A program made the translations under genes and the position numbers. Of a stretch of 64,000 nucleotides of DNA, positions 3,530 through 23,239 are shown one piece after another. The notes below the pieces were generated by a model. The model had not been told where the DNA came from. It saw only the letters and a program-made list of their open reading frames with translations, and ran no database searches. The DNA comes from Bradyrhizobium erythrophlei (GTDB lineage Bacteria; Pseudomonadota; Alphaproteobacteria; Rhizobiales; Xanthobacteraceae). Every line of letters begins with the position of its first letter. Positions within the stretch are counted from its first letter, which is position 1. The stretch spans positions 5,968,501 to 6,032,500 of the forward strand of contig NZ_LT670849.1 of the NCBI RefSeq assembly GCF_900142985.1. The letters run 5' to 3'.

Positions 3530-3781
3530 CTATTTGCGCTTGCCACTCTTCGCCCGCTCGCTGCGTGCCGCGTCGTCGGGCATAACGAGATCGACGTGGC
3601 TTACACCGAGCGTGCTAGCAAGCTGAAACAACGTCACCACGGTCGGATTGCGCCGACCTGTTTCGAGACCGCTGATATACTGCTGGGTGAAGCCAGAAGC
3701 TTCGGCAAAGCTTTCCTGAGTAAAGCCTTTTGCTCTTCTAAATTTTGCAAAATTGCGGCCGACCAGCTTGCGCATATCCAT
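3530..3781 (-). CDS. XRE-family helix-turn-helix regulator, QseC-like
   Basis: A protein of 83 residues, almost entirely one helix-turn-helix domain: R-N-F-A-K-F-R-R-A-K-G near residue 9, then F-T-Q-E-S-F-A-E-A-S-G and Q-Q-Y-I-S-G-L-E-T-G-R-R-N-P, the recognition-helix motif of the Cro/C1 type. The tail is short and basic. The gene is divergent from a QseM-like DUF2285 gene. In ICEMlSymR7A a small XRE protein, QseC, has this same divergent position and controls qseM through operators between them. I infer that this is the equivalent; size, fold and position support it, not an alignment. An imperfect inverted repeat lies 19-52 bases upstream of its start. Confidence 0.82.
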   Translation of the reverse strand: MDMRKLVGRNFAKFRRAKGFTQESFAEASGFTQQYISGLETGRRNPTVVTLFQLASTLGVSHVDLVMPDDAARSERAKSGKRK

Positions 3782-3799: not shown

Positions 3800-3833
3800 T
3801 ACATACTATGAGGTTTATCCTCTATAATATGTA
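3800..3833. promoter_or_regulatory. Inverted repeat / candidate operator between qseC-like and qseM-like genes
   Basis: Arms TACATACTATGAGG (3800-3813) and CCTCTATAATATGTA (3819-3833) pair around TTTAT with one unpaired base. The right arm contains TATAAT (3823-3828), a good -10 box for rightward transcription toward the qseM-like gene, with TTTACA at 3798-3803 as a poorly spaced -35. Small XRE repressors bind such dyads; binding by the adjacent XRE protein is inferred. Confidence 0.55.
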
Positions 3834-4079
3834 TTCGGTTGAAGCTTCAGCTTCGATTAGACTGGCAGCGACATGTAGCCGGCCCGGCGCGCGGGTGCTT
3901 CGACAGCGTTCCATCATAGGATGCAGTTCACAGTCGTGTGGTTCGGAACTTCGGTGTCGAAGTATTAATTTTTGCAGAGCACAAACCTGTGGACCAGTCA
4001 GGCTGTCCAAGAGAAAATAGCTTTCGTGCAGCCGGATTTTCGCTACGTCGAAGGTTCTAAGCGCGCAGGAGTTTCTGTA

Positions 4080-4361
4080 ATGCCGCAGCTCAATGTCAAA
4101 GTTGCAGATACGGCGCCGGACGAACCCGCCCTGACGGCCTACGACCAGGAGCACGCTGTCACCTATGCGCGCCTTCTCGACGCCGAGGCTGACAACGCCG
4201 ACTGGCGTGAGGTAGCACACATCGTTCTTCATATTGATCCGACGACCGAACCGGAACGTGCTCAGCGTGCTTTTGAGAGCCATCTTGCTCGCGCGAAGTG
4301 GATGGCGCGGCATGGCTATCGTCATTTGCTTCGCGAGGGACGGCCAGGAAGCAAAACTTGA
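4080..4361 (+). CDS. DUF2285 single-domain protein, QseM-like antiactivator
   Basis: A protein of 93 residues. The ATG at 4080 has AGGAG at 4067-4071, eight bases before it, so the upstream extension of the frame is not used. The sequence shows the compact DUF2285 pattern: Y-A-R-L-L-D-A-E-A, D-W-R-E-V-A-H-I-V-L-H-I-D, then A-x-R-A-F-E-S-H-L-A-R-A-K-W-M and G-Y-R-H-L-L at the end. In ICEMlSymR7A the protein QseM of this family binds TraR and FseA and so blocks quorum-sensing activation and excision. Position next to a divergent XRE gene and upstream of a split DUF6499/DUF2285 gene matches that system. The antiactivator role is inferred from family and context. No recognisable tra-box lies upstream. 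Confidence 0.82.
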   Translation: MPQLNVKVADTAPDEPALTAYDQEHAVTYARLLDAEADNADWREVAHIVLHIDPTTEPERAQRAFESHLARAKWMARHGYRHLLREGRPGSKT

Positions 4362-4514: not shown

Positions 4515-4709
4515 ATGTCAGGTGTGGATTGGAGATCCGAGGAAGCTTACGCAAACTTCAAGAATGCTGAATCGATGGACATTGCTTGGGAGTGGCTCCG
4601 TCGTGACACCGAATACCAGAATGGCTATCAGAACATTGACCAGTCGCAGCGATTGAGCGTCGCGACAGAGGCCTTTCGCCAGAAGTGGGGGCTTTCTTTT
4701 CGCGGCTGA
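4515..4709 (+). CDS. DUF6499 protein, first half of FseA-like activator (frame 0)
   Basis: A frame of 64 codons. The ATG at 4515 starts M-S-G-V-D-W-R-S, followed by Y-A-N-F and D-I-A-W-E-W-L-R-R-D-T-E-Y, the DUF6499 (transcriptional-regulator-like) pattern. It stops at UGA 4707-4709, two codons after W-G-L-S-F. Directly after, in the +1 frame, the expected continuation A-A-D-P and a full DUF2285 domain follow. In ICEMlSymR7A the equivalent pair msi172-msi171 is fused by programmed +1 frameshifting to give FseA, activator of rdfS. The short product may also exist by itself. I am sure of the split reading frame; that the ribosome joins it here is an inference from the precedent and the lack of a start in the second half. 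Confidence 0.8.
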   Translation: MSGVDWRSEEAYANFKNAESMDIAWEWLRRDTEYQNGYQNIDQSQRLSVATEAFRQKWGLSFRG

Positions 4710-5292
4710 TCCACAAACGCCATTCAATCAACAACCGATCTTCTGGGCTCCTGAGGCCCTGCCGACCGTTCTGTCGCTCCGGGAAGTATCCTCTCCCGCT
4801 GAGGCTGGGCCATATTACTTCGACCTGGCCAGGGCGCCCGGCGGGGAATTTCGCCGCGCCCCAGATGGATGGCATGCCATTGTGCCGCTGGGTGGCGCCA
4901 CCCATCGCGTTTGGCTGCCTACTATTCCAGCCAGCGGCTCACCGTTAGCCGTCGAACTATGTCTCGACGCCAGTTTTGACATTCGCTTGCAAGCAGCGCG
5001 TCGCTTTTGGCTGGCAAGCGAAGGCCGCCGTCTCGGTAGTCCACCCATCGTGCTTCCAAACCAGCGACGCCAGAGGTTCATTTTGACTATCCGAGCCCTC
5101 GACGCATGGCTGCTGGGGAACAGTTATCGCGAGATTGCGGTAGGAATATTTGGCAAGGAGAGCATCTCCGATCGTTCCTGGAAAGCGCATGATCTGCGTA
5201 GCCGGATTATTCGCCTGATCGAGAGCGGGCGAGCCCTGATGCGAGGCGGCTATCGCGCGCTTTTGCGCCCGCCATCCCGGAAGAAACGATAG
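4657..5292 (+). CDS. DUF2285 protein, second half of FseA-like activator (+1 frame)
   Basis: This frame opens after a stop at 4654-4656 and has no ATG, GTG or TTG until GTG 4882, which is already about 60 codons into conserved sequence (F-W-A-P-E-A-L-P-T-V, then Y-Y-F-D-L, D-G-W-H-A-I-V-P-L-G). The C-terminal part is a DUF2285 helix-turn-helix: L-R-A-L-D-A-W-L-L-G near base 5095, Y-R-E-I-A-V-G-I-F-G, W-K-A-H-D-L-R-S-R-I-I-R-L-I, and G-Y-R-A-L-L at the end. Thus full-length translation requires entry from the upstream DUF6499 frame; the joined product would be about 258 residues (4515-4700 plus 4702-5289). A DNA error or simple frameshift mutation would look the same. Confidence 0.78.
   Translation, partial: ASRQRPFARSGGFLFAADPQTPFNQQPIFWAPEALPTVLSLREVSSPAEAGPYYFDLARAPGGEFRRAPDGWHAIVPLGGATHRVWLPTIPASGSPLAVELCLDASFDIRLQAARRFWLASEGRRLGSPPIVLPNQRRQRFILTIRALDAWLLGNSYREIAVGIFGKESISDRSWKAHDLRSRIIRLIESGRALMRGGYRALLRPPSRKKR
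4698..4709 (+). promoter_or_regulatory. Candidate +1 ribosomal frameshift site UUU-C
   Basis: Codons run CUU UCU UUU CGC GGC UGA. A tRNA-Phe on UUU (4698-4700) can move one base to UUC (4699-4701), its better codon, after which GCG GCU GAU CCA is read and the DUF2285 frame is entered. Only 53 bases (4657-4709) are open in both frames, so any shift must occur here. This is the best slippery position I can find in that window. Confidence 0.55.
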
Positions 5293-5302
5293 TCGCTGTC
5301 CT

Positions 5303-5343
5303 GGGGGTGCCGAAACTGCACCCCCTTATGTTCGGCATCCCCC
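5303..5343 (+). promoter_or_regulatory. Alternative hairpins upstream of rdfS-like gene
   Basis: GGGGGTGC (5303-5310) pairs perfectly with GCACCCCC (5318-5325). The same left arm extended to 5314 can instead pair with TTCGGCATCCCCC (5331-5343) with one bulged base. The two folds exclude each other. The element lies 11 bases after the FseA-like stop and about 82 bases before the excisionase start. As DNA it is a dyad that could bind the activator; as RNA it could be a switch or weak terminator. No T-tract follows. Confidence 0.5.
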
Positions 5344-5424: not shown

Positions 5425-5703
5425 ATGCCCGACGCTAGCCTCGCCATCTCGCCTCGATACCTGCGGACTGCCGAAGCAGCCCGGTATCTCAGCCTTTCAC
5501 CCCGCACTCTCGAAAAACACCGAACCTATGGCACCGGTCCCGCTTACCGGAAAATCGGCGGCCGCGTCGTGTACGCGGTGGCCGATCTGAGCGCATGGGC
5601 GGACATCGGCACCAGAACGTCAACCAGTGATCCCGGCAACGGCACTGTACTGCCGGCAAAGCGGCACGCTCCTATCCCGTATGCAGGAAAAGAGCGGCGC
5701 TGA
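5425..5703 (+). CDS. AlpA/MerR-type helix-turn-helix protein, RdfS-like excisionase
   Basis: A protein of 92 residues with GGAG (5413-5416) eight bases before the ATG. Residues 11-60 form the HTH_17/AlpA fold: Y-L-R-T-A-E-A-A-R-Y-L-S-L-S-P-R-T-L-E-K-H-R, then G-P-A-Y-R-K-I-G-G-R-V-V-Y and the closing D-L-S-A-W; the tail is basic. Proteins of this type act as recombination directionality factors, bending att DNA so that the integrase excises the element. In ICEMlSymR7A, rdfS heads the run rdfS-DUF2840-traF-rlxS and is switched on by FseA; the same order follows here. The integrase itself is not in the window. Function is assigned by fold and context. Confidence 0.85.
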   Translation: MPDASLAISPRYLRTAEAARYLSLSPRTLEKHRTYGTGPAYRKIGGRVVYAVADLSAWADIGTRTSTSDPGNGTVLPAKRHAPIPYAGKERR

Positions 5704-5706
5704 TCC

Positions 5707-6222
5707 ATGAAGAGACACGCTCACACCCCCGAAAAATACCCGACCAAAGAAATCACCGTGAACGACCTCACGACAGTCGAACTCTTGTGGCTCGAAAAGC
5801 GCATTGAGAACCGCATTCGGTTTGGTCGCGCCGTGTCGGAAAGCATCCTGGACCGCAATCGACGCACCCTGTCTTTCGTTCCAGGGAGCATCTTCGCGTT
5901 TGTCCGTTGGACGTCCAACGACTTTGGGACGGTTCTATCCCGCATCGATATCCTGCGCGCGGCGATACCTGGGCAGAGCTATTCGACAGTGCCGTGGATC
6001 AGGCCCGGCGGTGAAAGCCTGTTGCGATTGTCAGGCTGGCCAAAGGTCGAACGGGTTCTGCAATTGATCGATGCCGTCGAGGCGCTCGACATTGATCCTG
6101 CCGACGCAGCACCCGACTACTGGCACCACGTTCATAACCGTGTGTCGGTCAACGAAACACCTCGACCATATACCCGATCCCGTCACCAAGCGTGGCTCCA
6201 TCGGCGGAGGGTATCGTCATGA
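5707..6222 (+). CDS. DUF2840 domain protein
   Basis: A protein of 171 residues beginning three bases after the rdfS-like stop. Landmarks of DUF2840: V-E-L-L-W-L-E-K-R-I-E-N-R-I-R-F-G near residue 22, the R-R-T-L-S-F-V-P-G-S-I-F-A-F-V-R-W segment near 50, and the W-P-K-V-E-R-V-L-Q-L-I-D-A-V-E-A-L near 117, ending with H-H-V-H-N-R. The family is found next to traF and the DUF3363 relaxase in many alphaproteobacterial ICEs; what it does is unknown. Its stop overlaps the traF start (ATGA), so the two are translationally coupled. Confidence 0.85.
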   Translation: MKRHAHTPEKYPTKEITVNDLTTVELLWLEKRIENRIRFGRAVSESILDRNRRTLSFVPGSIFAFVRWTSNDFGTVLSRIDILRAAIPGQSYSTVPWIRPGGESLLRLSGWPKVERVLQLIDAVEALDIDPADAAPDYWHHVHNRVSVNETPRPYTRSRHQAWLHRRRVSS

Positions 6223-6728
6223 CCACCCGGTGCGCGACAATTTTCACGACATTTGCTGCAACCGTTCTTCTCCTCTCCACAGTTGAGGGAAGGACGCCGC
6301 ATTACATATGGAACGCATCAAATAGCGTTCCGATCGGCCTTTATCGGCTTCTGCCCGCGACAAACTTGACCCTGACTGAACTTGTTGCCGTACAGCCGCC
6401 TGATCTTCTCGCCGCATTCCTTGATCTCAATGATTATCTGCCGATCGGCGTCCCCATGCTCAAGCGCGTGCTGGCGCTGCCTGGGCAAACGGTCTGCAGA
6501 AATGGCCTATCGATCATGGTCGATGACATCGATATGGGGCAGGCGCAAGAACGCGACCGAAGAGGCCGTCCACTTCCGGCCTGGCACGGATGCCGTGTCA
6601 TCGCCGATGGCGATGTCTTCGTCATGAACTGGCAGTCGACCGACTCGCTCGATGGTCGATACTTTGGACCACTACCAGCATCCGCAGTCATCGGCAAAGC
6701 GGTTCCGATCTGGACTGACGAGGAATGA
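6219..6728 (+). CDS. traF: TraF-type S26 signal peptidase
   Basis: A protein of 169 residues. I start it at ATG 6219, which overlaps the DUF2840 stop and has GGAGG at 6207-6211; an earlier in-frame start lacks this. An N-terminal hydrophobic segment (about residues 7-20) anchors it. The catalytic Ser lies in N-S-V-P-I-G-L-Y (about residue 35) and the Lys in M-L-K-R-V-L-A-L-P-G (about residue 86), followed by the D-G-D-V-F-V-M-N and S-x-D-S-L-D-G-R-Y-F-G-P boxes. In RP4, TraF matures and cyclises the TrbC pilin; trbC is present at 16.2 kb. Acts at the inner membrane, outer face. Confidence 0.9.
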   Translation: MTTRCATIFTTFAATVLLLSTVEGRTPHYIWNASNSVPIGLYRLLPATNLTLTELVAVQPPDLLAAFLDLNDYLPIGVPMLKRVLALPGQTVCRNGLSIMVDDIDMGQAQERDRRGRPLPAWHGCRVIADGDVFVMNWQSTDSLDGRYFGPLPASAVIGKAVPIWTDEE

Positions 6729-7115
6729 TGATGCGCTCCACTCGCTGCGTATCATCCGATCGTTGCTCCTATCATTGGTCGTCGATCATTCCCTCCCGGC
6801 CGGAGCTCACAACCGTAATCGCGTCGCACTTGGCGGTTGGCGTGCAGTCCGTTGGCGGCAGTCTCCGCCGTTTACCGGTCGCGTTGACGCACGCGAATGA
6901 CTATCGGTGCGTATCCATGATGCTGCAATATCGCAATTCATTGCTCAGTTCACGGCGGGTTTTCCACGCCGAAACGGTCGCAGCCGAGCTGTCTCTCCTT
7001 CCATCAAATAAGGATCAACCGCAATGACTTCATTTGCATTCTCTCGCCAGTGGCTGCGAATCCTTAGGAGGTTGAGGCTTGGAGGATGGGCGCTGGGAAC
7101 GAGCGACCGAGGAGG
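6729..7115 (+). other. Non-coding gap where related ICEs carry a lytic transglycosylase
   Basis: In elements of this layout a lytic transglycosylase gene lies between traF and the relaxase. Here only about 540 bases separate traF from the relaxase, and no frame shows the transglycosylase motifs (the catalytic E-S-x-x-x-P or G-L-M-Q-I). Short open frames start directly after the traF stop but give no recognisable protein. I read it as a lost or heavily degraded gene plus the oriT region that follows. Confidence 0.5.
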
Positions 7116-7140: not shown

Positions 7141-7268
7141 ACGGTCGGTTGGGTGAGGAACAGCGCCAAATTCAGGCTTGTCCGAAACATTGCGAGGGTC
7201 TCTCGCAACTTGCGTTTTTCGGCAACGCATTATCGGCCCACGGCTTTTTACACTCTGCGGAGCAAACG

Positions 7269-8996
7269 ATGAGCAGGAACGACGATTTTCGCGTTCGTCC
7301 AGGCAAAATCCTTTCGACACGCGGGCCGCAAACAAAGTCATTTCTGGCGCAGGCGCTCCAAGCCGCGCAGAAGGCCGGCGGTCTTTCACGCGGCTCTGGC
7401 AGCCGCGGCAGCAGGTTCGGACGTGGACGCGCCGCGAGCCTTGCCGCGTCGCGAATGCCGCAAGCCCGCGCCCGTGGCGCCATGGTCAAGGCGCGCGTCG
7501 TCCGCCAGATGCGCTCGCCTGGGGCGCTACGAGCCCACATCGGGTATCTCAAGCGCGATGGCGTCACCCGCGACGGATCGCCAGGAAAATTGTTCGATGC
7601 CGCCGGAGATGACGCGGACAGCCGAGCCTTTACTGAGCGCTGCGAAGGGGACCGGCATCATTTCCGGTTCATCGTCTCGCCAGACGATGCCGGAGTGCTA
7701 TCGAGTTTGCGCGGCTTTACTCGGGAGCTGATGGACCAGGCCTCGCGCGATCTTGGTACGCGGCTCGACTGGGTCGCCGTCGACCACTGGAACACCGAGC
7801 ATCCACATATTCATATCCTTGTGCGCGGTCGAGCGGACGATGGTTCCGACCTCGTCATCAGCCGGGACTATATCGGCTCGGGATTGCGCGCGCGAGCGGG
7901 CGACCTCGTCACGCGCGAGCTCGGTCCGCGATCCGAGCTGGAGGTTCGACGCGGGCTTGAAGCGGAGGTCACGGCAGAACGCTGGACACGACTCGATCGG
8001 TCGCTTGCCCGGGAAGCGGGAAGGGCGGAGGGTTTGGTCGATCTCCGTCCTGAACGCGATGCCGGAGGCGATCCCTTGCGGGAGGTCCGGATCGGACGGA
8101 TGCGGGCGCTTGAGCGGATGGGGCTCGCCGAGCCCGCCGGTCCCGCGCGCTGGATTTTGGCCCCTGATGCGGAACAGCGCTTACGCTCGCTTGGAGAGCG
8201 CGGCGACATCATCAAGCGACTGCATAAGACACTTACAAAAGACGGAGTCTCTCGCGCGCCATCATCCTGGGCGCTTGAAGGCGAGTCCCACGGCGAACCG
8301 ATCGTTGGCCGTCTCATTAGCCGTGGCATGGATGACGAATTGCGGGGAACGGCGTTCGCGATTGTAGACGGAGTCGATGGGCGCGTGCACCACCTCAAGC
8401 TTCCCGACATCGATATGGCCGGCGACGGTCCGATCGGTGGCATTGTGGAATTACGTCGTTTTGAGGATGCGAAGGGACGGCAGCGGATCGCGCTCGCGGT
8501 GCGCTCGGATCTCAGCCTTGACCAGCAGGTGACAGCCGAAGGGGCGACCTGGCTCGATCGGCGACTGGTCGCCCGGGAACCTGCCGAGCTTTCCCGCGCC
8601 GGTTTCGGCGCCGAGGTCCGCGCGGCGCTCGATCGTCGGATCGATGCCTTGGCAGAGCAGGGACTGGCACGACGTGACGGAGACAAGGTCACAATCGGAC
8701 GCAACCTGATTGGTACGCTGCGCGACCGGGAGGTCGATGCGGTCGGGCGGCGCCTCGTCTCGGAAACAGGATTGGGACATTTGCCTGCTGACGCAGGAGA
8801 GCACGTCACGGGGATTTACCGCCGGCGGCTGTCGCTCGCTTCCGGCCGCTTTGCGATGATCGACAACGGCTTGGGCTTCCAGCTCGTACCTTGGATACCG
8901 TCTCTTGAACGCGAACTCGGCAAACAGGTGAACGGCATTGCCGGTCCTGGTGGAGTCGAATGGAGCTTTGGACGCAAGCGCGACCTCTCGCTCTGA
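7269..8996 (+). CDS. Relaxase with DUF3363 domain, RlxS-type
   Basis: A protein of 575 residues. The ATG at 7269 (M-S-R-N-D-D-F-R-V-R-P-G) is the usual start of the family. After a basic, Gly/Arg-rich stretch (about 15-75) comes the relaxase domain: a Tyr/His-bearing H-I-G-Y-L-K-R-D-G segment near 97, H-H-F-R-F-I-V-S-P-D-D near 134, and the metal-binding D-H-W-x-x-x-H-P-H-I-H at 172-182. The C-terminal half is DUF3363. Relaxases of this MOBP-like group nick oriT, stay bound to the 5' end and pilot the strand to the coupling protein. Context (traF before, traG after) agrees. The stop is 91 bases before traG. Confidence 0.92.
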   Translation: MSRNDDFRVRPGKILSTRGPQTKSFLAQALQAAQKAGGLSRGSGSRGSRFGRGRAASLAASRMPQARARGAMVKARVVRQMRSPGALRAHIGYLKRDGVTRDGSPGKLFDAAGDDADSRAFTERCEGDRHHFRFIVSPDDAGVLSSLRGFTRELMDQASRDLGTRLDWVAVDHWNTEHPHIHILVRGRADDGSDLVISRDYIGSGLRARAGDLVTRELGPRSELEVRRGLEAEVTAERWTRLDRSLAREAGRAEGLVDLRPERDAGGDPLREVRIGRMRALERMGLAEPAGPARWILAPDAEQRLRSLGERGDIIKRLHKTLTKDGVSRAPSSWALEGESHGEPIVGRLISRGMDDELRGTAFAIVDGVDGRVHHLKLPDIDMAGDGPIGGIVELRRFEDAKGRQRIALAVRSDLSLDQQVTAEGATWLDRRLVAREPAELSRAGFGAEVRAALDRRIDALAEQGLARRDGDKVTIGRNLIGTLRDREVDAVGRRLVSETGLGHLPADAGEHVTGIYRRRLSLASGRFAMIDNGLGFQLVPWIPSLERELGKQVNGIAGPGGVEWSFGRKRDLSL

Positions 8997-9086
8997 TCCG
9001 CCGATCTCTACGCCGTCGTGCGCGTTACTACGACGGCGAGCGGATTGCGATTGAATGTTGGCTTGGGATGCGCATCACCTCTGGGC

Positions 9087-11063
9087 ATGTCTGCAACCAA
9101 AATCCTCTGGGGCCAACTTCTCTTGGTTTCGGTGGTCGTGCTCGCCTTCCTTTGGGTGGCAACCGAGTGGACTGCCTGGTGCCTGGCTTTCCAGCCACAA
9201 CTTGGACCGCCCTGGTTCATGATCGGTCGCTGGCCGATCTATCAGCCGCTCGCCTTCTTCAACTGGTGGTTCAAATTCGACGCCTACGCTCCGAGGATTT
9301 TCGTCGAAGGTGGTTGCATCGCCGCAAGCGGCGGGATTGCGGCCATTGGCGTTGCGATCATGCTGTCGGTCTGGCGGGCGAAAGAAGCTCATCATGTTAC
9401 GACGTACGGCTCGGCCCGATGGGCCGATGTGCGAGAGGTTCGGCGGGCAGGACTTCTCGGGCCGGACGGCGTGGTTCTCGGACGCCTCGGTGGCAGCTAT
9501 CTCCGGCACGACGGTCCCGAACACGTCCTGTGCTTTGCGCCGACCAGGTCGGGAAAGGGTGTCGGCCTCGTCATCCCGACCCTCCTGACATGGCCCTCTT
9601 CCATGATCGTCCACGATATCAAAGGTGAAAACTTCCAATTGACCTCGGGCTGGCGGGCTCGGTTTGGATCGGTACTTCTATTTGATCCGACCAATCCAGC
9701 GAGCGCTGCCTATAATCCGCTGCTCGAGATCCGCAAAGGAGACAACGAAGTACGTGATGCGCAGAATATTGCCGACATCCTGGTTGATCCCGAAGGCGCG
9801 CTCGAGCGACGGAATCACTGGGAGAAAACCAGCCATTCTTTGCTCGTCGGTGCAATCCTGCATGTCCTTTATGCAGAAACCGACAAGACGCTCGCCGGTG
9901 TCGCGAACTTTCTCTCGGATCCCTCGCGGCCGATCGAAGCGACGTTGAACGCGATGTTGGCAACCCCGCACCTTGGCGAACGTCCTCATCCGGTGGTGGC
10001 CTCGGCAGCGCGCGAACTGCTGAACAAGAGTGAGAATGAACGCTCGGGCGTATTGTCGACGACAATGAGTTTTCTGGGGCTCTACCGAGACCCCGTGGTT
10101 GCCAAGGTGACGGGACGGAGCGACTGGCGCATTCGTGATCTGGTTGATGGCGCCCAACCAATATCTCTGTACCTGGTAGTACCGCCCTCCGACATCGCTC
10201 GCACCAAGCCATTGATGCGCCTCGTGCTCAATCAGATCGGACGGCGGCTGACCGAGAGCCTGGATACCGATCGACGGCGGCAGAAACTCCTGCTGATGCT
10301 CGATGAGTTCGCGGCCCTCGGACGCCTCGACTTCTTCGAGAGCCAGCTTGCATTTATGGCGGGCTACGGCATCCGCAGCTTCCTAATCACACAAAGCCTG
10401 AATCAGCTCGAACGAGCCTACGGGCCAAATCACGCCATCCTCGACAATTGCCATATCCGGATTGCGTTTTCGACGAATGACGAGCGCACCGCCAAGAGGG
10501 TGTCGGATGCACTTGGGACTGCGACTGAGATGCGTGCCATGAAGAACTATGCTGGACACCGTCTCTCACCATGGCTTGGTCATCTCATGGTGAGCCGCCA
10601 GGAAACATCGCGTCCACTGTTGACACCGGGTGAAGTCATGCAGCTCTCGCCTAGCGACGCGATTGTCATGGTCTCCGGCGTGCATCCGGTACGCGCCAGC
10701 AAAGTCCGGTACTACGAGGACTCGCAGTTCCAGCGCCGGATATTAAGCCCGTCGCGTGCTGTACCGATCGACTTGGTTATGCGACCAGACGAATGGTCGA
10801 GGCATCCGCCCATCCCTCCTTCGGTCACACTGCTTGCTGCGCTCACAAAAAAGAGACGCGATCAGAATGGCGGCATTCGTCGCGAGCCGGAATTGCCGCA
10901 ACAAGAGGAAGTCGTCCTAACGACGCCGCTCGCCGAATACGAATATGACGCTCCGCCAGACGGGGGCGATGCCTATGCCGTGCAAGCGGCAAGCTTGAAC
11001 CGATCGATGCAGGGCCTCGCACGCGCCGTCAGCCTCGACCCCGACGACAAGATGGGCCTATGA
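9087..11063 (+). CDS. traG: TraG/VirD4-type conjugative coupling ATPase
   Basis: A protein of 658 residues. I start it at ATG 9087 (M-S-A-T-K-I-L-W-G-Q), the family's usual beginning, rather than 9018. Two or three membrane segments fill residues 8-105. Walker A is A-P-T-R-S-G-K-G at about 151-158 and Walker B L-M-L-D-E-F at about 403-408; the Q-S-L-N-Q and N-x-D-E-R-T-A segments of the T4CP superfamily follow. The hexameric ATPase takes the relaxosome to the Trb channel at the inner membrane. The C-terminal tail, rich in acidic residues, is probably the substrate-contact region. A CopG gene begins nine bases after its stop. Confidence 0.95.
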   Translation: MSATKILWGQLLLVSVVVLAFLWVATEWTAWCLAFQPQLGPPWFMIGRWPIYQPLAFFNWWFKFDAYAPRIFVEGGCIAASGGIAAIGVAIMLSVWRAKEAHHVTTYGSARWADVREVRRAGLLGPDGVVLGRLGGSYLRHDGPEHVLCFAPTRSGKGVGLVIPTLLTWPSSMIVHDIKGENFQLTSGWRARFGSVLLFDPTNPASAAYNPLLEIRKGDNEVRDAQNIADILVDPEGALERRNHWEKTSHSLLVGAILHVLYAETDKTLAGVANFLSDPSRPIEATLNAMLATPHLGERPHPVVASAARELLNKSENERSGVLSTTMSFLGLYRDPVVAKVTGRSDWRIRDLVDGAQPISLYLVVPPSDIARTKPLMRLVLNQIGRRLTESLDTDRRRQKLLLMLDEFAALGRLDFFESQLAFMAGYGIRSFLITQSLNQLERAYGPNHAILDNCHIRIAFSTNDERTAKRVSDALGTATEMRAMKNYAGHRLSPWLGHLMVSRQETSRPLLTPGEVMQLSPSDAIVMVSGVHPVRASKVRYYEDSQFQRRILSPSRAVPIDLVMRPDEWSRHPPIPPSVTLLAALTKKRRDQNGGIRREPELPQQEEVVLTTPLAEYEYDAPPDGGDAYAVQAASLNRSMQGLARAVSLDPDDKMGL

Positions 11064-15010: not shown

Positions 15011-15251
15011 AACCTACTTTCTAGTACTTAGTGACTCTCCTGATCCTTGCCCAAGACGTCGCTGAATACACGCGCTTCGTCCCTCGGCTGTAATGCCGTC
15101 AGCGTTAGCGTTCCACTCGACCTCAATCTTTCTTATCGTACTCCATGGCACGAACGGCGTCAGCCACTTGTTGCGCCTAGCTAGTTTCTGCCTTTTCTAA
15201 TCATCCCAACCCGAGGCCGCCTTAAGCGACCACGGCAAGTTGGGGGCAGCG

Positions 15252-16220
15252 GTGTCAATCCATCCCTTTCAGTCGGAAGCACTCTCCCGCGGTGCGCGCA
15301 TGCTGCGCACTGCATTCGGTCCTGCGATTGCTCGCTATCTAGAAGATCCGGCGATCATCGAGGTGATGCTCAATCCCGATGGACGGTTGTGGGTTGATAG
15401 GCTGTCGGGAGGTTTGACGGAGACAACCGAACGCCTGTCCGCTCCTGACGGCGAACGCATCGTTCGATTAGTCGCCCATCACGTAGGCGCAGAGGTCCAT
15501 GCAGGCAGCCCGCGTGTCTCAGCCGAGTTGCCTGAGACGGGCGAGCGTTTCGAGGGCCTGTTGCCGCCAGTGGTCGCGGCCCCGGCTTTTGCGATCAGAA
15601 AGCCGGCGGTCGCCGTGTTTACGCTGGACGACTATGTCGCCGCGGGAACCATGACCTCGGGCCACGCCAGTGCTTTGAAAGGCGCGGTCCAAGCGCACAA
15701 GAACATTCTTGTCGCCGGCGGCACTTCGAGCGGCAAGACGACGCTGACCAACGCGCTGTTAGCCGAAGTCGCCAAGACCTCGGATCGGGTTGTTCTCATC
15801 GAAGATACCCGAGAACTTCAGTGCAAGGCCCCGAATCTCGTAGCGTTACGTACCAAGGACGGCGTGATCTCGCTATCAGATTTGGTCCGTTCGTCGCTGC
15901 GTCTGCGGCCCGATCGCATTCCGATCGGGGAGGTCCGCGGTGCAGAAGCTCTCGATTTGCTCAAGGCCTGGGGCACGGGTCACCCCGGCGGCGTCGGCAC
16001 CATCCACGCCGGTACCGCGCTCGGAGCGTTGCGCCGACTGGAGCAGTTGATCCAGGAAGCCGTCGTCACGGTCCCCCGCGCCCTGATCGCGGAGACCATC
16101 AACGTTATTGCCGTTCTTTCAGGTCGCGGTGCCGATCGCCGCGTTGCCGAACTCGCTAGCGTCACCGGGCTCGGACCATCCGGTGATTACAGCCTTACAG
16201 CATTGGGGGACCAATCATGA
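15252..16220 (+). CDS. trbB: TrbB, conjugative transfer ATPase (VirB11-like)
   Basis: A protein of 322 residues from GTG 15252, which has GGGGG at 15242-15246; a TTG twelve bases earlier is less likely. It begins [10 protein letters not shown], as TrbB proteins do. Walker A is G-G-T-S-S-G-K-T-T around K162, followed by I-E-D-T-R-E-L-Q, the [10 protein letters not shown] box and the [12 protein letters not shown] motif. VirB11-type hexameric ATPases power pilus assembly and DNA export from the cytoplasmic face. It heads the trb operon and overlaps trbC by four bases; its promoter must lie after the SGNH gene, within 15011-15251. Confidence 0.95.
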
Positions 16221-16543
16221 GTGTTACATCTTCGCTGGAACGATTCGTCATTTCGACGACCGTGTTCGCGACGGCCTCACTGACCGTCGGCCCAGCCTTC
16301 GCGGCTGGCTCTAACATGCCGTGGGAGCAGCCGCTCAATCAGATCCTGCAATCGGTCGAAGGCCCGGTCGCGAAGATCATCGCCGTCATCATCATCATCG
16401 TCACAGGGCTTTCGCTGGCGTTCGGCGATACCTCGGGCGGATTCCGCAGACTCATCCAGATCGTGTTCGGCCTATCGATCGCGTTCGCAGCATCGAGCTT
16501 CTTTCTATCGTTCTTCTCGTTCGGCGGGGGAGTGGTGATCTGA
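16217..16543 (+). CDS. trbC: TrbC, pilin precursor
   Basis: A protein of 108 residues overlapping trbB by ATGA. A signal peptide covers about residues 1-30 (ending A-F-A-A-G), then M-P-W-E-Q-P-L, then two long hydrophobic segments (about 50-68 and 80-102) with the small polar turn F-G-D-T-S-G-G-F-R-R between them. This is the VirB2/TrbC pilin layout. In RP4, TrbC is trimmed and cyclised by TraF, which is encoded at 6.2 kb. Located in the inner membrane before pilus assembly. Confidence 0.92.
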   Translation: MSVTSSLERFVISTTVFATASLTVGPAFAAGSNMPWEQPLNQILQSVEGPVAKIIAVIIIIVTGLSLAFGDTSGGFRRLIQIVFGLSIAFAASSFFLSFFSFGGGVVI

Positions 16544-16806
16544 TGGATGCAGAAATCCCAGGCTTCGTCACGCCCGTGCATCGCGCGCTGACCGAACCGA
16601 TCCTGATGGGCGGTGCGCCACGCTCGATCGCGATTCTCAACGGAACGCTCGCCGCAGCGCTCGGCATCGGTCTGCGCCTCTGGGTCGCAGGCCTCCTTCT
16701 CTGGTTTGTTGGGCACATGGCGGCCGTCTGGGCCGCCAAGCGCGATCCTGACTTCGTTGAGGTCGTGCGTCGACATCTCCGCATCCCCGGTCATCTCAAC
16801 TCGTGA
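16543..16806 (+). CDS. trbD: TrbD, VirB3-like membrane protein
   Basis: A protein of 87 residues. The ATG at 16543 shares its A with the trbC stop (TGATG). P-G-F-x-T-P-V-H-R-A-L-T-E-P-I-L-M-G-G-A-P at the N-terminus is the VirB3/TrbD hallmark, followed by two hydrophobic segments (about 27-45 and 47-65) and a short charged tail. VirB3-type proteins sit in the inner membrane and work with the VirB4-type ATPase, here TrbE, encoded next. Confidence 0.92.
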   Translation: MDAEIPGFVTPVHRALTEPILMGGAPRSIAILNGTLAAALGIGLRLWVAGLLLWFVGHMAAVWAAKRDPDFVEVVRRHLRIPGHLNS

Positions 16807-16814
16807 GTTCTTTC

Positions 16815-19256
16815 ATGATGAACCTCGCCGAATATCGCCGGTCGAATACGCGTCTCGCTGACTTTTTGCCGTGGGCTGCCCTCGTCGATGAGGGCATTGT
16901 CCTCAACAAGGACGGGTCGTTTCAACGGACCGCAAAATTCCGGGGGCCTGATCTCGATAGCGCCGTGCCAGCTGAGCTCGTCGCCATTGCCGGCCGTCTG
17001 AACAACGCCTTGCGTCGGCTCGAATCCGGTTGGGCGATTTTTGTCGAAGCGCAGCGCCATTCCGCAGGCAGCTATCCACCCAACACATTTCCGGACACGG
17101 CGTCCGCCCTGGTCGATGCTGAGCGGAGGGCACAGTTCGAAGAAGCCGGCGCCCACTACGAGTCGAGCTATTTCCTGACGTTTCTCTATCTCCCACCGGC
17201 GGAAGGTACCGCGAAAGCGGAACGACTACTTTATGAGGGCAGCAACCGCACCGTTGACGCGGATGCGCGCGAGGTCCTCCGTGGATTTGTCGATCGGACC
17301 AACCGCGTGCTGCAGCTCGTCGAAGGCTTCATGCCGGAATGCGCCTGGCTGGACGACCAGGAAACCCTGACTTACCTGCATTCGACGGTCTCGACCAAGC
17401 GGCATCGGGTCAGGGTGCCCGAGATCCCGATGTATCTTGACGCGCTGCTCGCCGATCAACCGCTGACCGGTGGGCTCGAGCCAATGCTTGGTTCATCGCA
17501 CCTGCGAGTACTGACGGTGGTGGGGTTTCCGACGGCGACGACACCTGGGATTCTCGACGACCTAAACCGTCTCGCATTTTCCTATCGCTGGTCGACCCGC
17601 GCGATCATGCTGGACAAGACCGATGCCACAAAACTCCTGACAAGGATCCGGCGGCAATGGTTCGCCAAGCGCAAGTCGGTGTCCGCGATCCTGAAGGAGG
17701 TGATGACCAACGAGGCGTCCGCCCTTCTTGATACCGATGCCCATAACAAGGCCATGGATGCCGACGCGGCGCTTCAGGAGCTGGGCTCGGATCAGATCGG
17801 CGAAGCCTTTGTGACGGCGACGGTCACGGTCTGGGACAGCGACCCCGCTACCGCTGATGAAAAACTCCGTCTCGTCGAAAAGGTGATCCAGGGTCGGGAT
17901 TTCACCTGCATGATCGAGACAGTGAACGCGATCGAGGCTTGGCTCGGCAGCCTGCCGGGACATGTTTACGCCAATGTGCGGCAGCCGCCGATCTCGACTT
18001 TGAACCTGGCGCACTTGATCCCACTGTCGGCGGTATGGGCCGGGGAGGCTAGGGACCATCATTTCAAGGCGCCGCCTTTGTTCTTGGCCAGAACAGAGGG
18101 TTCGACACCGTTTCGCTTTTCGCTCCACGTCGGTGATGTCGGACATACGCTGGTGGTCGGACCGACCGGCGCCGGCAAATCGGTGCTGCTGGCGCTGATG
18201 GCGCTTCAGTTCCGCCGGTACCCCGAATCTCAGATCTTTGCCTTTGATTTCGGTGGTTCGATCCGGGCGGCCGCGATTGCCATGAGCGGCGATTGGCATG
18301 ATCTCGGTGGCGCGCTTGCCGGAGAGACCTCCGAGTTCGTTTCCCTTCAGCCGCTCGCCAGGATCGATGATGTTGCCGAAAGGGGATGGGCGGCCGAATG
18401 GATCAGTTCAATTTTGAGCCGCGAGCGGATCGAGGTCACGCCGGAAGCCAAGGAGCACATTTGGTCGGCGTTGAGTTCCTTAGCCTCCGCTCCAGTAGGG
18501 GAGCGCACTCTCACGGGCCTTTCCGTGCTGCTTCAATCCAACGTGCTGAAGCGAGCCCTACAACCCTATTGCCTCGGGGGTCCGTACGACCGGTTGCTGG
18601 ATGCCGAAAGCGAGCGCCTCGGAGAGTCATCGGTCCAGGTCTTCGAGACCGACGGACTTATCGGAACCGCGGTCGCGCCAGCCGTTCTTGCGTATCTGTT
18701 TCACCGCATAGAGGGCCGCTTCGATGGTCGGCCGACCCTGCTCATCATCGACGAGGGTTGGCTCGCGCTAGATGATGAAGACTTCGCAGGACGACTGCGT
18801 GAGTGGCTGAAGACGCTGCGCAAGAAGAATGCCTCGGTCATTTTCGCAACCCAGTCGCTCGCGGATATCGACGGCTCGGCAATCGCGCCGGCGATCATCG
18901 AGAGTTGTCCAACGCGCGTTATGTTGCCAAACGACCGCGCCATCGAGCCACAGATCATGGCAATCTACCGGCGCTTTGGATTGAACGACCGCCAGATCGA
19001 AATCCTCGCCCGCGCGACGCCGAAGCGTGACTATTACTGCCAGTCGCGCCGCGGCAATCGCTTGTTCGAACTCGGCCTTGGCGAGGTCGCGCTCGCCTTC
19101 AGCGCCGCTTCCTCCAAGACCGACCAGACGCTGATCGAGCAAGTCCTTGCCGAAAACGGCCGCGACAACTTTGTGCCCGGATGGCTGAAGGCGCGCGATG
19201 TCGCCTGGGCGACCGATCTCATCCCGCATCTCGCAGAATTGGAGGCGTCAAAATGA
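16815..19256 (+). CDS. trbE: TrbE, conjugative transfer ATPase (VirB4-like)
   Basis: A protein of 813 residues from ATG 16815 (M-M-N-L-A-E-Y-R-R, the usual family start); GTG 16803, overlapping the trbD stop, is an alternative. The N-terminal CagE/VirB4 domain includes F-L-P-W-A-A-L-V and N-K-D-G-S-F-Q-R-T. Walker A is G-P-T-G-A-G-K-S around K455, Walker B L-L-I-I-D-E-G-W near residue 645, and A-T-Q-S-L-A-D near 680. VirB4 ATPases drive substrate transfer and pilus subunit extraction at the inner membrane. Full length; overlaps trbJ by ATGA. Confidence 0.95.
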   Translation: MMNLAEYRRSNTRLADFLPWAALVDEGIVLNKDGSFQRTAKFRGPDLDSAVPAELVAIAGRLNNALRRLESGWAIFVEAQRHSAGSYPPNTFPDTASALVDAERRAQFEEAGAHYESSYFLTFLYLPPAEGTAKAERLLYEGSNRTVDADAREVLRGFVDRTNRVLQLVEGFMPECAWLDDQETLTYLHSTVSTKRHRVRVPEIPMYLDALLADQPLTGGLEPMLGSSHLRVLTVVGFPTATTPGILDDLNRLAFSYRWSTRAIMLDKTDATKLLTRIRRQWFAKRKSVSAILKEVMTNEASALLDTDAHNKAMDADAALQELGSDQIGEAFVTATVTVWDSDPATADEKLRLVEKVIQGRDFTCMIETVNAIEAWLGSLPGHVYANVRQPPISTLNLAHLIPLSAVWAGEARDHHFKAPPLFLARTEGSTPFRFSLHVGDVGHTLVVGPTGAGKSVLLALMALQFRRYPESQIFAFDFGGSIRAAAIAMSGDWHDLGGALAGETSEFVSLQPLARIDDVAERGWAAEWISSILSRERIEVTPEAKEHIWSALSSLASAPVGERTLTGLSVLLQSNVLKRALQPYCLGGPYDRLLDAESERLGESSVQVFETDGLIGTAVAPAVLAYLFHRIEGRFDGRPTLLIIDEGWLALDDEDFAGRLREWLKTLRKKNASVIFATQSLADIDGSAIAPAIIESCPTRVMLPNDRAIEPQIMAIYRRFGLNDRQIEILARATPKRDYYCQSRRGNRLFELGLGEVALAFSAASSKTDQTLIEQVLAENGRDNFVPGWLKARDVAWATDLIPHLAELEASK

Positions 19257-19987
19257 ACCACGTTCGTCGTCTCGCTGTCGCTGGCGTTATCGCGCTTGCC
19301 GTCTTCGTCGGTCCCCACCGGACCTCCGCGCAGTTGGTTGTGTTTGATCCTAACAACTATGCGCAAAACGTGTTGACCGCTGCTCGATCTCTGCAGCAGA
19401 TCAACAACCAGATCGTGTCTCTGCAGAATCAAGCGCAGATGCTGATCAACCAGGCGAGAAATTTAGCGACCTTGCCGTTCTCGTCGTTGTTGCAACTGGA
19501 ACAGTCGATCCTGCGTACCCAGCAACTACTCGCCCAGGCCCAGCGTATCGCCTACGACATCCAGCAGATCGATCGTGCATTCTCGACGACCTATGCGTCA
19601 GCGTCGTCCAGTCTCTCGAACCAAGTGTTGATCGCGAACGCGCAAACGCGTTGGCAGAATGCGATGGCCGGCATGCAGGACGCCATGCGGACGCAGGCGA
19701 CGGTCGTCGGCAATCTCAACACTAACCATACGCAGATGTCGGCCCTCGTCACCGCGAGCCAGGGGGCATCCGGTGCGTTGCAGGCGAGCCAGGCCGGCAA
19801 TCAGCTCTTGGCGCTGGCGTCACAGCAACTTGCCGATCTCACGGCCGTCGTTGCAGCCCATGGGCGCGCACAAAACCTCGAGTCCGCGCAGCGCGCGGCC
19901 GCCCAGGACCAGGGCAGGGAGCAACTGCGTCGCTTCCTGACGCAAGGCGCCGGCTATCAAACCACAACCGTGCAGATGTTTCACTGA
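19253..19987 (+). CDS. trbJ: TrbJ, VirB5-like secreted protein
   Basis: A protein of 244 residues. ATG 19253 overlaps the trbE stop; GGAGG lies at 19241-19245. A signal peptide spans about 1-24 (cut after R-T-S-A-Q), then V-F-D-P-N-N-Y-A-Q-N, the TrbJ/VirB5 motif, and a long Gln/Ala-rich coiled-coil region (about 35-190) with many Q-Q and N-Q pairs. VirB5-type proteins form the pilus tip or a periplasmic adhesin. The stop is shared with the trbK-like start (TGATG). Confidence 0.92.
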   Translation: MNHVRRLAVAGVIALAVFVGPHRTSAQLVVFDPNNYAQNVLTAARSLQQINNQIVSLQNQAQMLINQARNLATLPFSSLLQLEQSILRTQQLLAQAQRIAYDIQQIDRAFSTTYASASSSLSNQVLIANAQTRWQNAMAGMQDAMRTQATVVGNLNTNHTQMSALVTASQGASGALQASQAGNQLLALASQQLADLTAVVAAHGRAQNLESAQRAAAQDQGREQLRRFLTQGAGYQTTTVQMFH

Positions 19988-20367
19988 TGAACATGAAAAA
20001 ACTTGAACGTCTCCCCACTGCGACAGCCATGGTGCTCGTCGTTCTGGTGGTTGCAGCCTGCGCAATACAGCTACGTGACGACGAAAGCCAAACCCTGTCC
20101 GCTGCATCGGCTGATCAGGCATCCGACGTGCTGACGGCAAAGCTCGCGGAGTGTCGCTCCGTCACCTACGAGCAGAAAGATGCTCTGTCCGAGTGCCGCA
20201 AGGCGTGGGCCGAGAAGCGCCGTCAATTCCTTAGACAGGATAAGGCTCCATCAGCATCGTCCGACAACGGGGCTGCCAAGGAGGGCTCCTCGTTGTTTGT
20301 GCCGCCCAAGGACGGGAGCCGCCAATCACCTGGTTACTCTCCGATTCATCAGTCAGGAAAGGAGTGA
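19987..20367 (+). CDS. TrbK-alt, putative entry-exclusion lipoprotein
   Basis: A protein of 126 residues with an N-terminal hydrophobic segment ending in a lipobox, V-V-A-A-C (Cys at about 25), so it should be lipidated and membrane-bound. The rest is short and polar with paired Cys (A-E-C-R-S-V-T and S-E-C-R-K-A-W), the pattern of the TrbK-alt family that always sits between trbJ and trbL. TrbK of RP4 stops a donor-type cell from receiving the same plasmid; the same role is inferred. The tail is Ser/Pro-rich. Confidence 0.85.
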   Translation: MNMKKLERLPTATAMVLVVLVVAACAIQLRDDESQTLSAASADQASDVLTAKLAECRSVTYEQKDALSECRKAWAEKRRQFLRQDKAPSASSDNGAAKEGSSLFVPPKDGSRQSPGYSPIHQSGKE

Positions 20368-20370
20368 CCG

Positions 20371-21576
20371 ATGGGCGGCACCGGCATTATCGATCAGTTC
20401 CTTGAGACGTTCACTCGATACATCGATTCCGGGTTCGGGCTACTCGGAGGCGAAGTCGGATATCTCGCCACCACGCTTGCGGCGATCGACGTCACGCTGG
20501 CGGGTCTGTTCTGGGCAGGGGGAGCCGACGACGACATCTTAATTCGTCTCGTCAAGAAGACTTTGTTTGTCGGCGTCTTCGCATTTCTGATCGGCAACTG
20601 GAACAGCTTGGCCCGCATAATCTTCGAAAGCTTTGCAGGTTTGGGTCTCAAAGCCTCCGGCACCGGTCTTTCCTCAGCCGACTTCTTGAGGCCGGGAAAG
20701 ATCGCCCAGGTGGGACTTGATGCTGGACGACCTATTCTTGATTCGATCTCGGGTTTGATGGGCTATGTCAGCTTCTTCGAGAATTTCATCCAGATTACGG
20801 TTTTGTTGTTCGCCTGGATTGTGGTGCTGCTCGCCTTCTTTATTCTGGCAATCCAGCTCTTTATCACGCTGATCGAGTTCAAGCTGACGACCCTTGCCGG
20901 GTTTGTGCTGATCCCATTCGGCCTCTTTGGTAAGACCGCGTTTGCCGCCGAGCGTGTCCTCGGCAACGTTATTTCGTCGGGCGTCAAAGTTCTGGTGTTG
21001 GCCGTCATTGTCGGCATCGGCTCAACGCTGTTTGCGCAGTTCACGGCAGGCTTCGGCGGCAATCAGCCGACCATCGACAACGCTATGGCACTTGTACTCG
21101 GGGCGCTCTCCCTTCTCGGCCTCGGTATCTTCGGGCCTGGTATTGCCAACGGCATCGTATCAGGTGGACCACAACTCGGTGCTGGCGCTGCGGTCGGCAC
21201 CGGCTTGGCTGCTGGTGGTGCGATCGTCGCTGGTGCCGGTCTCGCGGCCGGTGGTGCGGGACTGGCAGGTGGCGCACTCGCGGGAGGCGCCCGTGGCGCC
21301 ACCGCGATAGCAGGCGGAACAGCGAGCGCTTACCGCGCCGGAGGATTGAGTAGCGTCGCGAAAGCAGGTGGCTCGGCGATAACAAGCCCGCTGCGCCGTA
21401 CGGCTGCCGCGCTCGGTGGTGGTTCATCAACGACGGACGCGCCACCGGCGTGGGCGCGCCGTATGAAGCGCGCGCAGACTGTGAACCAGGGCGTGTCCGC
21501 TGCCACCCATGCGGTTCGCAGCGGTGATAGTGCCGGCGGCGGATCCTCGGTTGATCTGTCCGAGGGAGGGCACTGA
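20371..21576 (+). CDS. trbL: TrbL, VirB6-like polytopic membrane protein
   Basis: A protein of 401 residues starting three bases after trbK-alt with AGGAG just before. It begins M-G-G-T-G-I-I-D-Q-F-L-E-T-F and has six or so hydrophobic segments up to about residue 290. From about 260 it becomes a Gly/Ala-rich region (G-A-G-A-A-V-G-T-G-L-A-A-G-G), then a Ser-rich polar tail with W-A-R-R-M-K-R, as in TrbL. VirB6-type proteins form part of the inner-membrane pore for the DNA. Overlaps trbF by one base (TGATG). Confidence 0.93.
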   Translation: MGGTGIIDQFLETFTRYIDSGFGLLGGEVGYLATTLAAIDVTLAGLFWAGGADDDILIRLVKKTLFVGVFAFLIGNWNSLARIIFESFAGLGLKASGTGLSSADFLRPGKIAQVGLDAGRPILDSISGLMGYVSFFENFIQITVLLFAWIVVLLAFFILAIQLFITLIEFKLTTLAGFVLIPFGLFGKTAFAAERVLGNVISSGVKVLVLAVIVGIGSTLFAQFTAGFGGNQPTIDNAMALVLGALSLLGLGIFGPGIANGIVSGGPQLGAGAAVGTGLAAGGAIVAGAGLAAGGAGLAGGALAGGARGATAIAGGTASAYRAGGLSSVAKAGGSAITSPLRRTAAALGGGSSTTDAPPAWARRMKRAQTVNQGVSAATHAVRSGDSAGGGSSVDLSEGGH

Positions 21577-22256
21577 TGTTCAGGCGACCATCCGTGCATT
21601 ACGGCCGTACGCCGGAACCAGTGACGCCCTACCAGAAAGCTGCGCAGGTCTGGGACGAGCGCATCGGCTCGGCGCGCGTCCAGGCCGGAAACTGGCGGTT
21701 GATGGCATTCGGATGCCTATTCCTGTCGGGGGGACTCGCCGCAAGTCTCGTCTGGCAGTCGACCCAGGGCACGATCACCCCGTGGGTGGTTGAAGTCGAT
21801 CGTCTCGGTCAGGCACAGGCGGTCGCGCCAGCGAGCCCCTTCGATCAGCCGACGGATCCACAAATCGCGTTTCACCTCGCGCGCTTCATTGAAGATGTGA
21901 GAGGCCTGCCGACCGATGCCATCGTGCTGCGGCAGGACTGGCTTCGCGCCTACGACTTCACGACCGATCGTGGAGCAGTGGCGCTGAACGATTACGCGCG
22001 AACCAACGATCCCTTCGCCAAGCTGGGGAACACCCAGATCGCGGTCGAGATCTCCAGCGTCATTCGCGCCTCGCCGCAAAGCTTTCGGGTGGCGTGGACC
22101 GAACGCCGCTACGACAGCGGCCAACTCGCCGCGACCGAGCGGTGGACCGCAATCCTTTCCGTCGTCATCGAAACCCCACGTGATGCCGACCGCCTGCGCA
22201 AGAATCCGCTCGGCGTCTATGTCCATTCCATCAACTGGTCGAAGGAGCTCGGCTAG
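21576..22256 (+). CDS. trbF: TrbF, VirB8-like protein
   Basis: A protein of 226 residues: a cytoplasmic N-terminus with T-P-Y-Q-K-A-A-Q-V-W-D-E-R-I-G, one membrane segment (about 41-60), and a periplasmic NTF2-like domain with T-P-W-V-V-E-V-D, F-I-E-D-V-R-G-L, Y-D-F-T, and W-T-E-R-R-Y near 169. This is the VirB8/TrbF layout; such proteins nucleate channel assembly. The stop overlaps the GTG start of trbG. Confidence 0.93.
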   Translation: MFRRPSVHYGRTPEPVTPYQKAAQVWDERIGSARVQAGNWRLMAFGCLFLSGGLAASLVWQSTQGTITPWVVEVDRLGQAQAVAPASPFDQPTDPQIAFHLARFIEDVRGLPTDAIVLRQDWLRAYDFTTDRGAVALNDYARTNDPFAKLGNTQIAVEISSVIRASPQSFRVAWTERRYDSGQLAATERWTAILSVVIETPRDADRLRKNPLGVYVHSINWSKELG

Positions 22257-23239
22257 TGAGAAATCCTGTACCGAGGTCGATTGGTCCAAACTGCAATGGG
22301 ACGCCTGCAAGTCTGGCCCTGCTTTTTGTTCTCGCGCTCTCCGGCTGCACGACCTTCAAGCCGCCGCAGATCAGTTATGATGACGACGTGCCGCCGTCTC
22401 CCGATCTTCCGATGCCGGCAGACGACCATGCGCGTCCATTGCATGTCCCCCCATCCTGGACGCCGACCCGCGGCGGCAAGAAGGGTGATCAAGAAGCCAA
22501 CGAGCCCACAGACCGGATTGGGACGGCCAACGACGCCGCCCGAGTCGAGCCGCGGCGGGCAGGATATTTCAACGCGGTCCAGGTCTTTCCCTATAGTCCC
22601 GGCGCGCTCTACCAGATCTACGCCTCACCAGGGCAAATCACCGATATTGCGCTTGAGCCGGGCGAACAGCTAACCGGATCGGGACCGCTCGCCGCCGGCG
22701 ATACCGTGCGCTGGATCGTCGGCGATACGGAAAGCGGCAACGGCGATAGCAGGCGTGTCCACATCATGGTGAAGCCGACAAGGGCCGCCATCGAGACGAA
22801 CCTTGTCGTCAACACCGATCGACGAACCTACCTGATCGAGCTGCGCTCCCGCGAAAAACCATACATGCCGTCGGTCGCGTGGTTCTATTCTGAAGACCGA
22901 GCCAACCGCTCAAGGGTCATGCCACCAACCCCAGTCATCCCGGAAGTGGATCAACGTCGCTACCGCTACGCCATCGAAGGCGATAGCCCGCCATGGCGCC
23001 CGTTAAATGCCTACGATGATGGCCGCAAGGTCTATATCGAGTTCTCGCCCGGCATCGCCCAAGGCGAAATGCCGCCGCTGTTCGTCATCGGCCAGGATGG
23101 CAAGCCCGAGCTCGTCAACTATCGTGCTTTCAAAAATGTACTGATTGTCGACCGACTGTTTGCCGCGGCCGAGCTTCGGCTCGGGGGGGAGAAGCAGCAG
23201 AAGGTTCGTATCGTCAGAAACGACGGGAGACGATCTTGA
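22256..23239 (+). CDS. trbG: TrbG, VirB9-like lipoprotein
   Basis: A protein of 327 residues from GTG 22256, which overlaps the trbF stop (TAGTGAG region). A lipobox L-S-G-C at about 28-31 follows a hydrophobic signal. A polar linker leads to the VirB9/CagX domain: V-F-P-Y-S-P-G-A-L-Y-Q-I-Y-A near 107, D-I-A-L-E-P-G-E near 130, W-I-V-G-D near 155, and the C-terminal Y-R-Y-A-I-E-G-D, P-P-L-F-V-I-G. VirB9-type proteins build the periplasmic and outer-membrane core ring with TrbI. Confidence 0.93.
   Translation: MRNPVPRSIGPNCNGTPASLALLFVLALSGCTTFKPPQISYDDDVPPSPDLPMPADDHARPLHVPPSWTPTRGGKKGDQEANEPTDRIGTANDAARVEPRRAGYFNAVQVFPYSPGALYQIYASPGQITDIALEPGEQLTGSGPLAAGDTVRWIVGDTESGNGDSRRVHIMVKPTRAAIETNLVVNTDRRTYLIELRSREKPYMPSVAWFYSEDRANRSRVMPPTPVIPEVDQRRYRYAIEGDSPPWRPLNAYDDGRKVYIEFSPGIAQGEMPPLFVIGQDGKPELVNYRAFKNVLIVDRLFAAAELRLGGEKQQKVRIVRNDGRRS

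Follow-up and report, generated by a model that had tools for sequence, protein, structure and literature searches.

An fseA gene in two reading frames with a conserved, probable +1 frameshift signal on a putative conjugative element of Bradyrhizobium erythrophlei

The window, the whole stretch of DNA analysed here, comprises 64,000 nucleotides (contig NZ_LT670849.1, positions 5,968,501 to 6,032,500) of the 7.5 megabase (Mb) genome of Bradyrhizobium erythrophlei. At positions 4515-5292, on the + strand, it carries a gene divided between two frames which resembles fseA (msi172-msi171) of ICEMlSymR7A from Mesorhizobium japonicum (R7A). The msi172-like first frame (4515..4709) has 64 codons from ATG 4515 to TGA 4707-4709, ends with K-W-G-L-S-F-R-G and encodes a DUF6499 domain (PF20109, 67.8 bits, expectation value (E) 1.1e-18). 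The msi171-like second frame (4657..5292), in the +1 register, is open over 4657-5289 with a stop codon at 5290-5292 and encodes a middle region followed by DUF2285 (PF10074, 104.3 bits, E 6.8e-30). The frames overlap only at 4657-4709, and the earliest ATG, GTG or TTG of the second is GTG 4882, preceded by 75 codons. The coordinates, the overlap and the lack of a start in the first 75 codons that the original prediction had given proved correct on re-reading; the two domains that it had named, in that order, are both matched above the curated Pfam cut-offs.

Joined by a +1 shift, the two frames give a predicted product (P0001) that retains both domain matches above cut-off and carries the DUF6499 motif as AWEWLRRD, two substitutions away from the family form AWEFLRRN. 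A structural model predicts that it folds as one RovC-like protein, with 19% identity to RovC of Yersinia (6xz5) over the aligned part, and 11 full-length natural fused proteins align with it at 47-51% identity. RovC activates a type VI secretion system (PMC10359603), a role that differs from that of FseA. The domains, the motif and the predicted fold bear out the earlier naming of the product as FseA, and identification of the gene as fseA, on a putative conjugative element in Bradyrhizobium, is secure. Membership of the genus is supported within the survey: in six genomes of the same genus (G930, G932, G933, G1029, G1030, G1031) the DUF6499 place adjoins exactly the coordinates at which DUF2285 is matched on named Bradyrhizobium plasmids, and named protein hits agree with this. 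The likeness to R7A is drawn from domains and published descriptions (PMC10359603). Among the loci collected, the best match to the R7A QseM structure (7uqt) reaches only 76%; the R7A element is therefore not among them.

Relatives were sought through DUF6499 in four overlapping sets of genomes: the GTDB family (49 of 149 genomes positive), the phylum (43 of 398), the order (86 of 397) and the genus (196 of 265). Loci were drawn from the best DUF6499 matches, a subset of all matches. The family set used every listed match except one at a contig end; the phylum set provided 30 loci and 20 further regions out of 64 listed matches, the order set 30 loci and 60 regions, and the genus set 30 loci among the matches listed. 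A further batch added 30 loci and then 20 hand-picked regions, some chosen as odd-looking. Named loci overlap the remaining genomes, and duplicates were stripped by the DNA around the site. An initial set of 212 places, all distinct, comprised 182 with DUF2285 in the +1 frame, 22 single-frame forms, 7 in which no C domain was found and 1 with both domains in one frame and a stop between them. In the final set, to which the named loci also belong and from which 59 duplicates and 2 short hits had been dropped, 288 places are split in the +1 direction; the others are 23 single-frame forms, 7 without a C domain in reach and 4 whose two domains share a frame yet lie in distinct open stretches. Related sequences are each counted singly, except in the clustering described below. 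Outside the order, many DUF6499 matches sit in uninterrupted frames some 260-330 codons long and represent single-frame forms. The fseA copies L040, L382, L383 and L384 look broken, and intact relatives of them exist. As a matter of annotation, databases hold DUF2285 proteins (P0002, P0006 and similar) that start before the slip site, already in the second frame; their N-terminus is out-of-phase DUF6499 sequence.

The motif of the relatives and their codon bias mark a +1 frameshift signal at 4686..4701 (+), TGG GGG CTT TCT TTT C, with a Shine-Dalgarno-like G-run and the slip codon TTT-C at 4698..4701 (+). The pattern TGG-NNN-NNN-NNN-TKT-Y fits 281 of the 288 split relatives: 256 have TTT-C, 13 TTT-T, 11 TGT-C and 1 TGT-T, and among the 7 without the defined motif some retain TTT-C in changed surroundings. 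The subset of named records gives a similar picture (75 distinct split sites: 59 TTT-C, 5 TTT-T, 9 TGT-C, 1 TGT-T and L309 without the motif). At 176 sites, codon use was compared with that of the same genes. Phenylalanine at the slip position is encoded by TTT in 165 of 165 cases against a background of 26%, a count in which the pattern itself admits only TTT or TGT; the six failing sites that were printed have no TTC at that place. Glycine after tryptophan is GGG in 136 of 174 cases (background 12%), leucine is TTR in 112 of 160 (12%) and arginine preceding the slip codon is CGA in 107 of 129 (10%). After clustering at 80% identity, TTT occupies the slip position in 121 of 124 clusters. The distance from the slip codon to the zero-frame stop varies from 2 to 236 codons (median 31, 176 sites), and the stop codon is therefore no part of the signal. 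TGA lies two codons past the slip in the window, as in many Bradyrhizobium copies, because the other frame encodes A-D or H-D there. The TTT present in 269 of the 288 split sites and the codon bias uphold the proposed slip position and the +1 direction. A frameshift in this fseA copy is, from its sequence, very likely.

A single-base error or mutation in an ordinary single-frame gene would also produce two frames. Single-frame relatives do exist (the 23 places and 11 fused proteins mentioned above), as do copies that have the N and C domains in one frame and yet contain a stop (L040, L382-L384). However, the split, its +1 direction, the TTT and the G-run are common to many relatives across many genomes, and seven other genomes of the genus carry the identical TGG-GGG-CTT-TCT-TTT-C form. 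Moreover, the ratio of non-synonymous to synonymous substitution (dN/dS) is about 0.2 for each half of fseA in the window's clade (9 and 17 of 21 pairs gave a value, the others being saturated), so that purifying selection acts on both frames. Given this selection and the 288 distinct split relatives, the two-frame layout is not due to chance, and a decayed or mis-sequenced copy is very improbable. Nature also provides forms that would bypass the slip: L328 keeps the slip site yet is single-frame owing to a difference downstream of it, and in L377 a difference at the W codon has the same effect (both read by eye).

Separate translation of the two frames, with cooperation of the resulting proteins, has been proposed for rihF1a/rihF1b of Azorhizobium caulinodans (PMC9601964). 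In relatives, gene callers annotate a separate start for the second frame, and a start at GTG 4882 would yield a 136-amino-acid protein containing DUF2285; against this, the middle region could not start within 75 codons devoid of ATG, GTG and TTG, natural fused proteins exist, and the joined product is predicted as one fold. The A. caulinodans case itself points the other way. Deletion of rihF1 lowers transfer roughly 1000-fold, a loss that one half by itself does not repair, and the authors state that frameshifting is absent in this organism (PMC9601964). The rihF1b-rihF1a genes of ICEAc (L026, genome G013), close to where the symbiosis region ends, nevertheless have the same module and +1 layout as the window, with DUF2285 in the +1 frame and the slip site retained as TGG GGA CTT CGA TTT C. 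The A. caulinodans sequence disagrees with the published absence of a frameshift. Separate translation in the window is very improbable.

Within the overlap, P-site re-pairing is possible on paper at two other places, CTT-T (4692-4695) and an additional in-frame TTT-C (4674-4677) that the original prediction did not mention. Neither is the conserved position. The latter reads TTC in 6 of 6 nearest relatives, and slipping there would delete the conserved W-G-L; a shift at either place is very improbable.

At 4698-4701 tRNA-Phe would re-pair from UUU to UUC, as previously suggested. The position stands, but re-pairing as the sole mechanism of the family does not, provided that the copies with TGT for TTT work, and how exactly the family slips is less settled than had been assumed. 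TGT occurs in 12 of the 288 sites, eleven from one lineage (named members: Aquabacter, Xanthobacter, Ancylobacter and two unclassified genome bins) and the isolated L069. By reasoning, the +1 codon would not allow tRNA-Cys to re-pair. In ten of the eleven members of the lineage, dN/dS came to about 0.25 in each half. At the ten named TGT loci, which overlap those used for dN/dS, a lone DUF2285 frame is present in 10 of 10 and an rdfS-like gene in 9 of 10; at the remaining locus (L285) the contig ends just past fseA. L069 also has AGG for GGG and may be decaying.

The +1 frameshift in the release factor 2 (RF2) gene prfB has a Shine-Dalgarno-like G-rich run a few bases upstream, and its slip codon is immediately followed by a stop. 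The window shares with RF2 the G-rich run shortly before the shift. It differs in having two sense codons between TTT and TGA. A real shift without tRNA-Phe re-pairing, in which the codon preceding TTT occupies the P site in the RF2 register behind the G-run and the first U of UUU or UGU is skipped, is a less probable alternative. It would accommodate the TGT sites, at 3 of which (L069, L078, L302) there is also no CCC that could serve as the next slip codon, the selection on both halves of the TGT genes and the preference for CGA before the slip. However, TTT occupies 269 of 288 sites, the window has TCT instead of CGA, and the TGT copies are only putatively functional. The broader proposition starts from the TGT lineage, which keeps the whole signal and intact, selected frames with UGU for UUU. 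It holds that the FseA shift is independent of tRNA-Phe throughout, a U being skipped in a register that resembles that of RF2 and is fixed by the G-run, aided in many members by CGA, and it is slightly more doubtful still. If true, it would represent a stop-free +1 device of which no description was found in the literature, and the UUU of the window would be merely its commonest form.

The genes flanking fseA include two, directly upstream, that the original prediction did not mention. A QseM-like lone DUF2285 antiactivator of 93 amino acids (4080..4361, +; PF10074) starts, as read by eye, at ATG 4080 behind AGGAG (4067-4071), and with the longer frame 4008-4358 as query it matches the QseM structure 7uqt (phmmer E 6.6e-21). 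Divergent from it lies a Cro/CI helix-turn-helix gene (3530..3781, -; PF01381, E 1.1e-15), called QseC-like from its position and domain. An imperfect inverted repeat (TACATACTAT/ATAATATGTA) at 3800-3833, just before this gene, is a possible operator. The rdfS-like excisionase gene previously placed after fseA (5425..5703, +; HTH_17) is borne out by PF12728 and by a match to the RdfS structure 8dgl (E 2.3e-9). Upstream of it a candidate FseA box (GTGCCGAA-16 base pairs (bp)-TTCGGCAT; 5307..5338, +) with the core GCCGAA-16-TTCGGC ends 86 bp before the ATG. In spacing and inverted arrangement it agrees with the published box, a pair of hexamers separated by 15-16 bp (PMC10359603). A repeat with 6 or more matching bases out of 8, placed at 83-88 bp, was found in 81 of 192 rdfS upstream regions against 13.2 expected from base shuffles, a count among related sequences to which no probability is attached. 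In the named records, a lone DUF2285 frame lies within 1.3 kilobases (kb) upstream of 72 of 75 split fseA genes and an rdfS-like gene within 1.5 kb downstream of 68 of 75.

Together these observations suggest the following pathway. Most ribosomes would stop at TGA 4707..4709 and release the 64-residue DUF6499 piece alone. A minority would pause on TGG-GGG-CTT-TCT-TTT, where the G-run could pair with the anti-Shine-Dalgarno sequence, shift +1 at TTT-C and read on as F-A-A-D-P in the second frame. Sequence, conservation and predicted fold indicate that the shifted product would be a 258-residue activator of the RovC/FseA type. By analogy with R7A, an FseA dimer would bind the inverted repeat at 5307-5338 and turn on rdfS-DUF2840-traF-rlxS, leading to excision and transfer of the element; the QseM-like protein would capture the DUF6499 helix and hold FseA off in most cells, its level being set by the divergent QseC-like repressor. 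This explanation as a whole is held with high confidence.

Several points weigh against it. The window has TCT before TTT and CTT after the G-run where the family favours CGA and TTG, glycine is encoded by GGC or GGT in many copies from Bradyrhizobium, so that the G-run is a tendency and no strict rule, and the TGT copies, if they work, imply that the phenylalanine mechanism is not universal. A stable RNA structure downstream of the slip site was looked for and none was found (z 0.62). No LuxR/TraR-type gene was found near the element: PF03472 has two matches genome-wide, at 2.18 and 4.57 Mb, at least about 1.4 Mb from the window (5.97-6.03 Mb), which implies that an R7A-type TraR input is not on this element. 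The closest tyrosine integrase found lies about 38 kb before the window, and any assignment of it to the element would be tentative.

Published work already describes FseA and its +1 frameshift, the UGGGGG located at W-G-L, the mechanism of QseM and 4709 FseA homologues of which about 61% are split (PMC10359603), and the window is a further member. Within the literature examined, the frameshift event itself is reported as shown for R7A alone. The original prediction proposed that the frameshift would limit excision to rare cells; in R7A, the division of cells into responding and silent ones is attributed to a bistable switch together with QseM (PMC10359603). The window is like R7A in the order DUF6499 then +1 DUF2285, in the UGGGGG at W-G-L, in having a lone-DUF2285 antiactivator and an rdfS operon on the same element, and in the inverted hexamers before rdfS. 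Unlike R7A, it has no TraR-type gene nearby, and its QseC- and QseM-like genes directly precede fseA, whereas R7A has traI2-msi172-msi171 followed by qseM-qseC (PMC5882170). Control of the R7A type, in which a slip switches transfer on, would thus occur on an element in a different genus that lacks adjacent quorum-sensing genes; since these are missing beside fseA, the frameshift and the antiactivator seem to form the heart of the device, with quorum sensing as an add-on. The survey yields a definition of the signal at codon level that is open to base-by-base testing, and the natural TGT series could separate the two slip mechanisms. The TGT lineage, the bypass forms and the correction for A. 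caulinodans rihF1 seem new as far as the literature search shows.

The rest of the putative element follows on the + strand. A DUF2840 gene (5707..6222; PF11000, E 7.5e-70) lies after rdfS, followed by a traF-like S26 peptidase gene (6219..6728; PF10502; TIGR02771 88 bits, below the cut-off of 100), an rlxS-like relaxase gene (7185..8996; PF11843) and traG for the coupling protein (9054..11063; NF010450, 1170 bits). The relaxase scores 595 bits with NF041267 against an NCBIfam cut-off of 850 and is divergent or altered. Two Bradyrhizobium plasmids have a replication initiator gene after rdfS and a lytic transglycosylase gene after traF; neither was recognised in the window, at 5703-5707 and 6728-7185 respectively, where no targeted search was made. 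Mating-pair genes of the trb type (trbB-, trbE-, trbJ-, trbL-, trbF-, trbG- and trbI-like) occupy 15240..24432; the names were assigned here from Pfam matches, that of trbJ from a DUF4141 match below cut-off. Between traG and trbB, MFS and GDSL-lipase-like genes lie at 11800-15010, among them a chimeric gene (11806-13908, +) whose 700-amino-acid frame joins a ribbon-helix-helix-like region, named by eye, to an MFS transporter. The former resembles the neighbour 11073-11507 (31% over 124 amino acids, E 6e-14). Upstream of the window lie a Ku-like gene (L239:1133-1891) and a 5-hmdU DNA kinase-like gene (L239:8047-9138).
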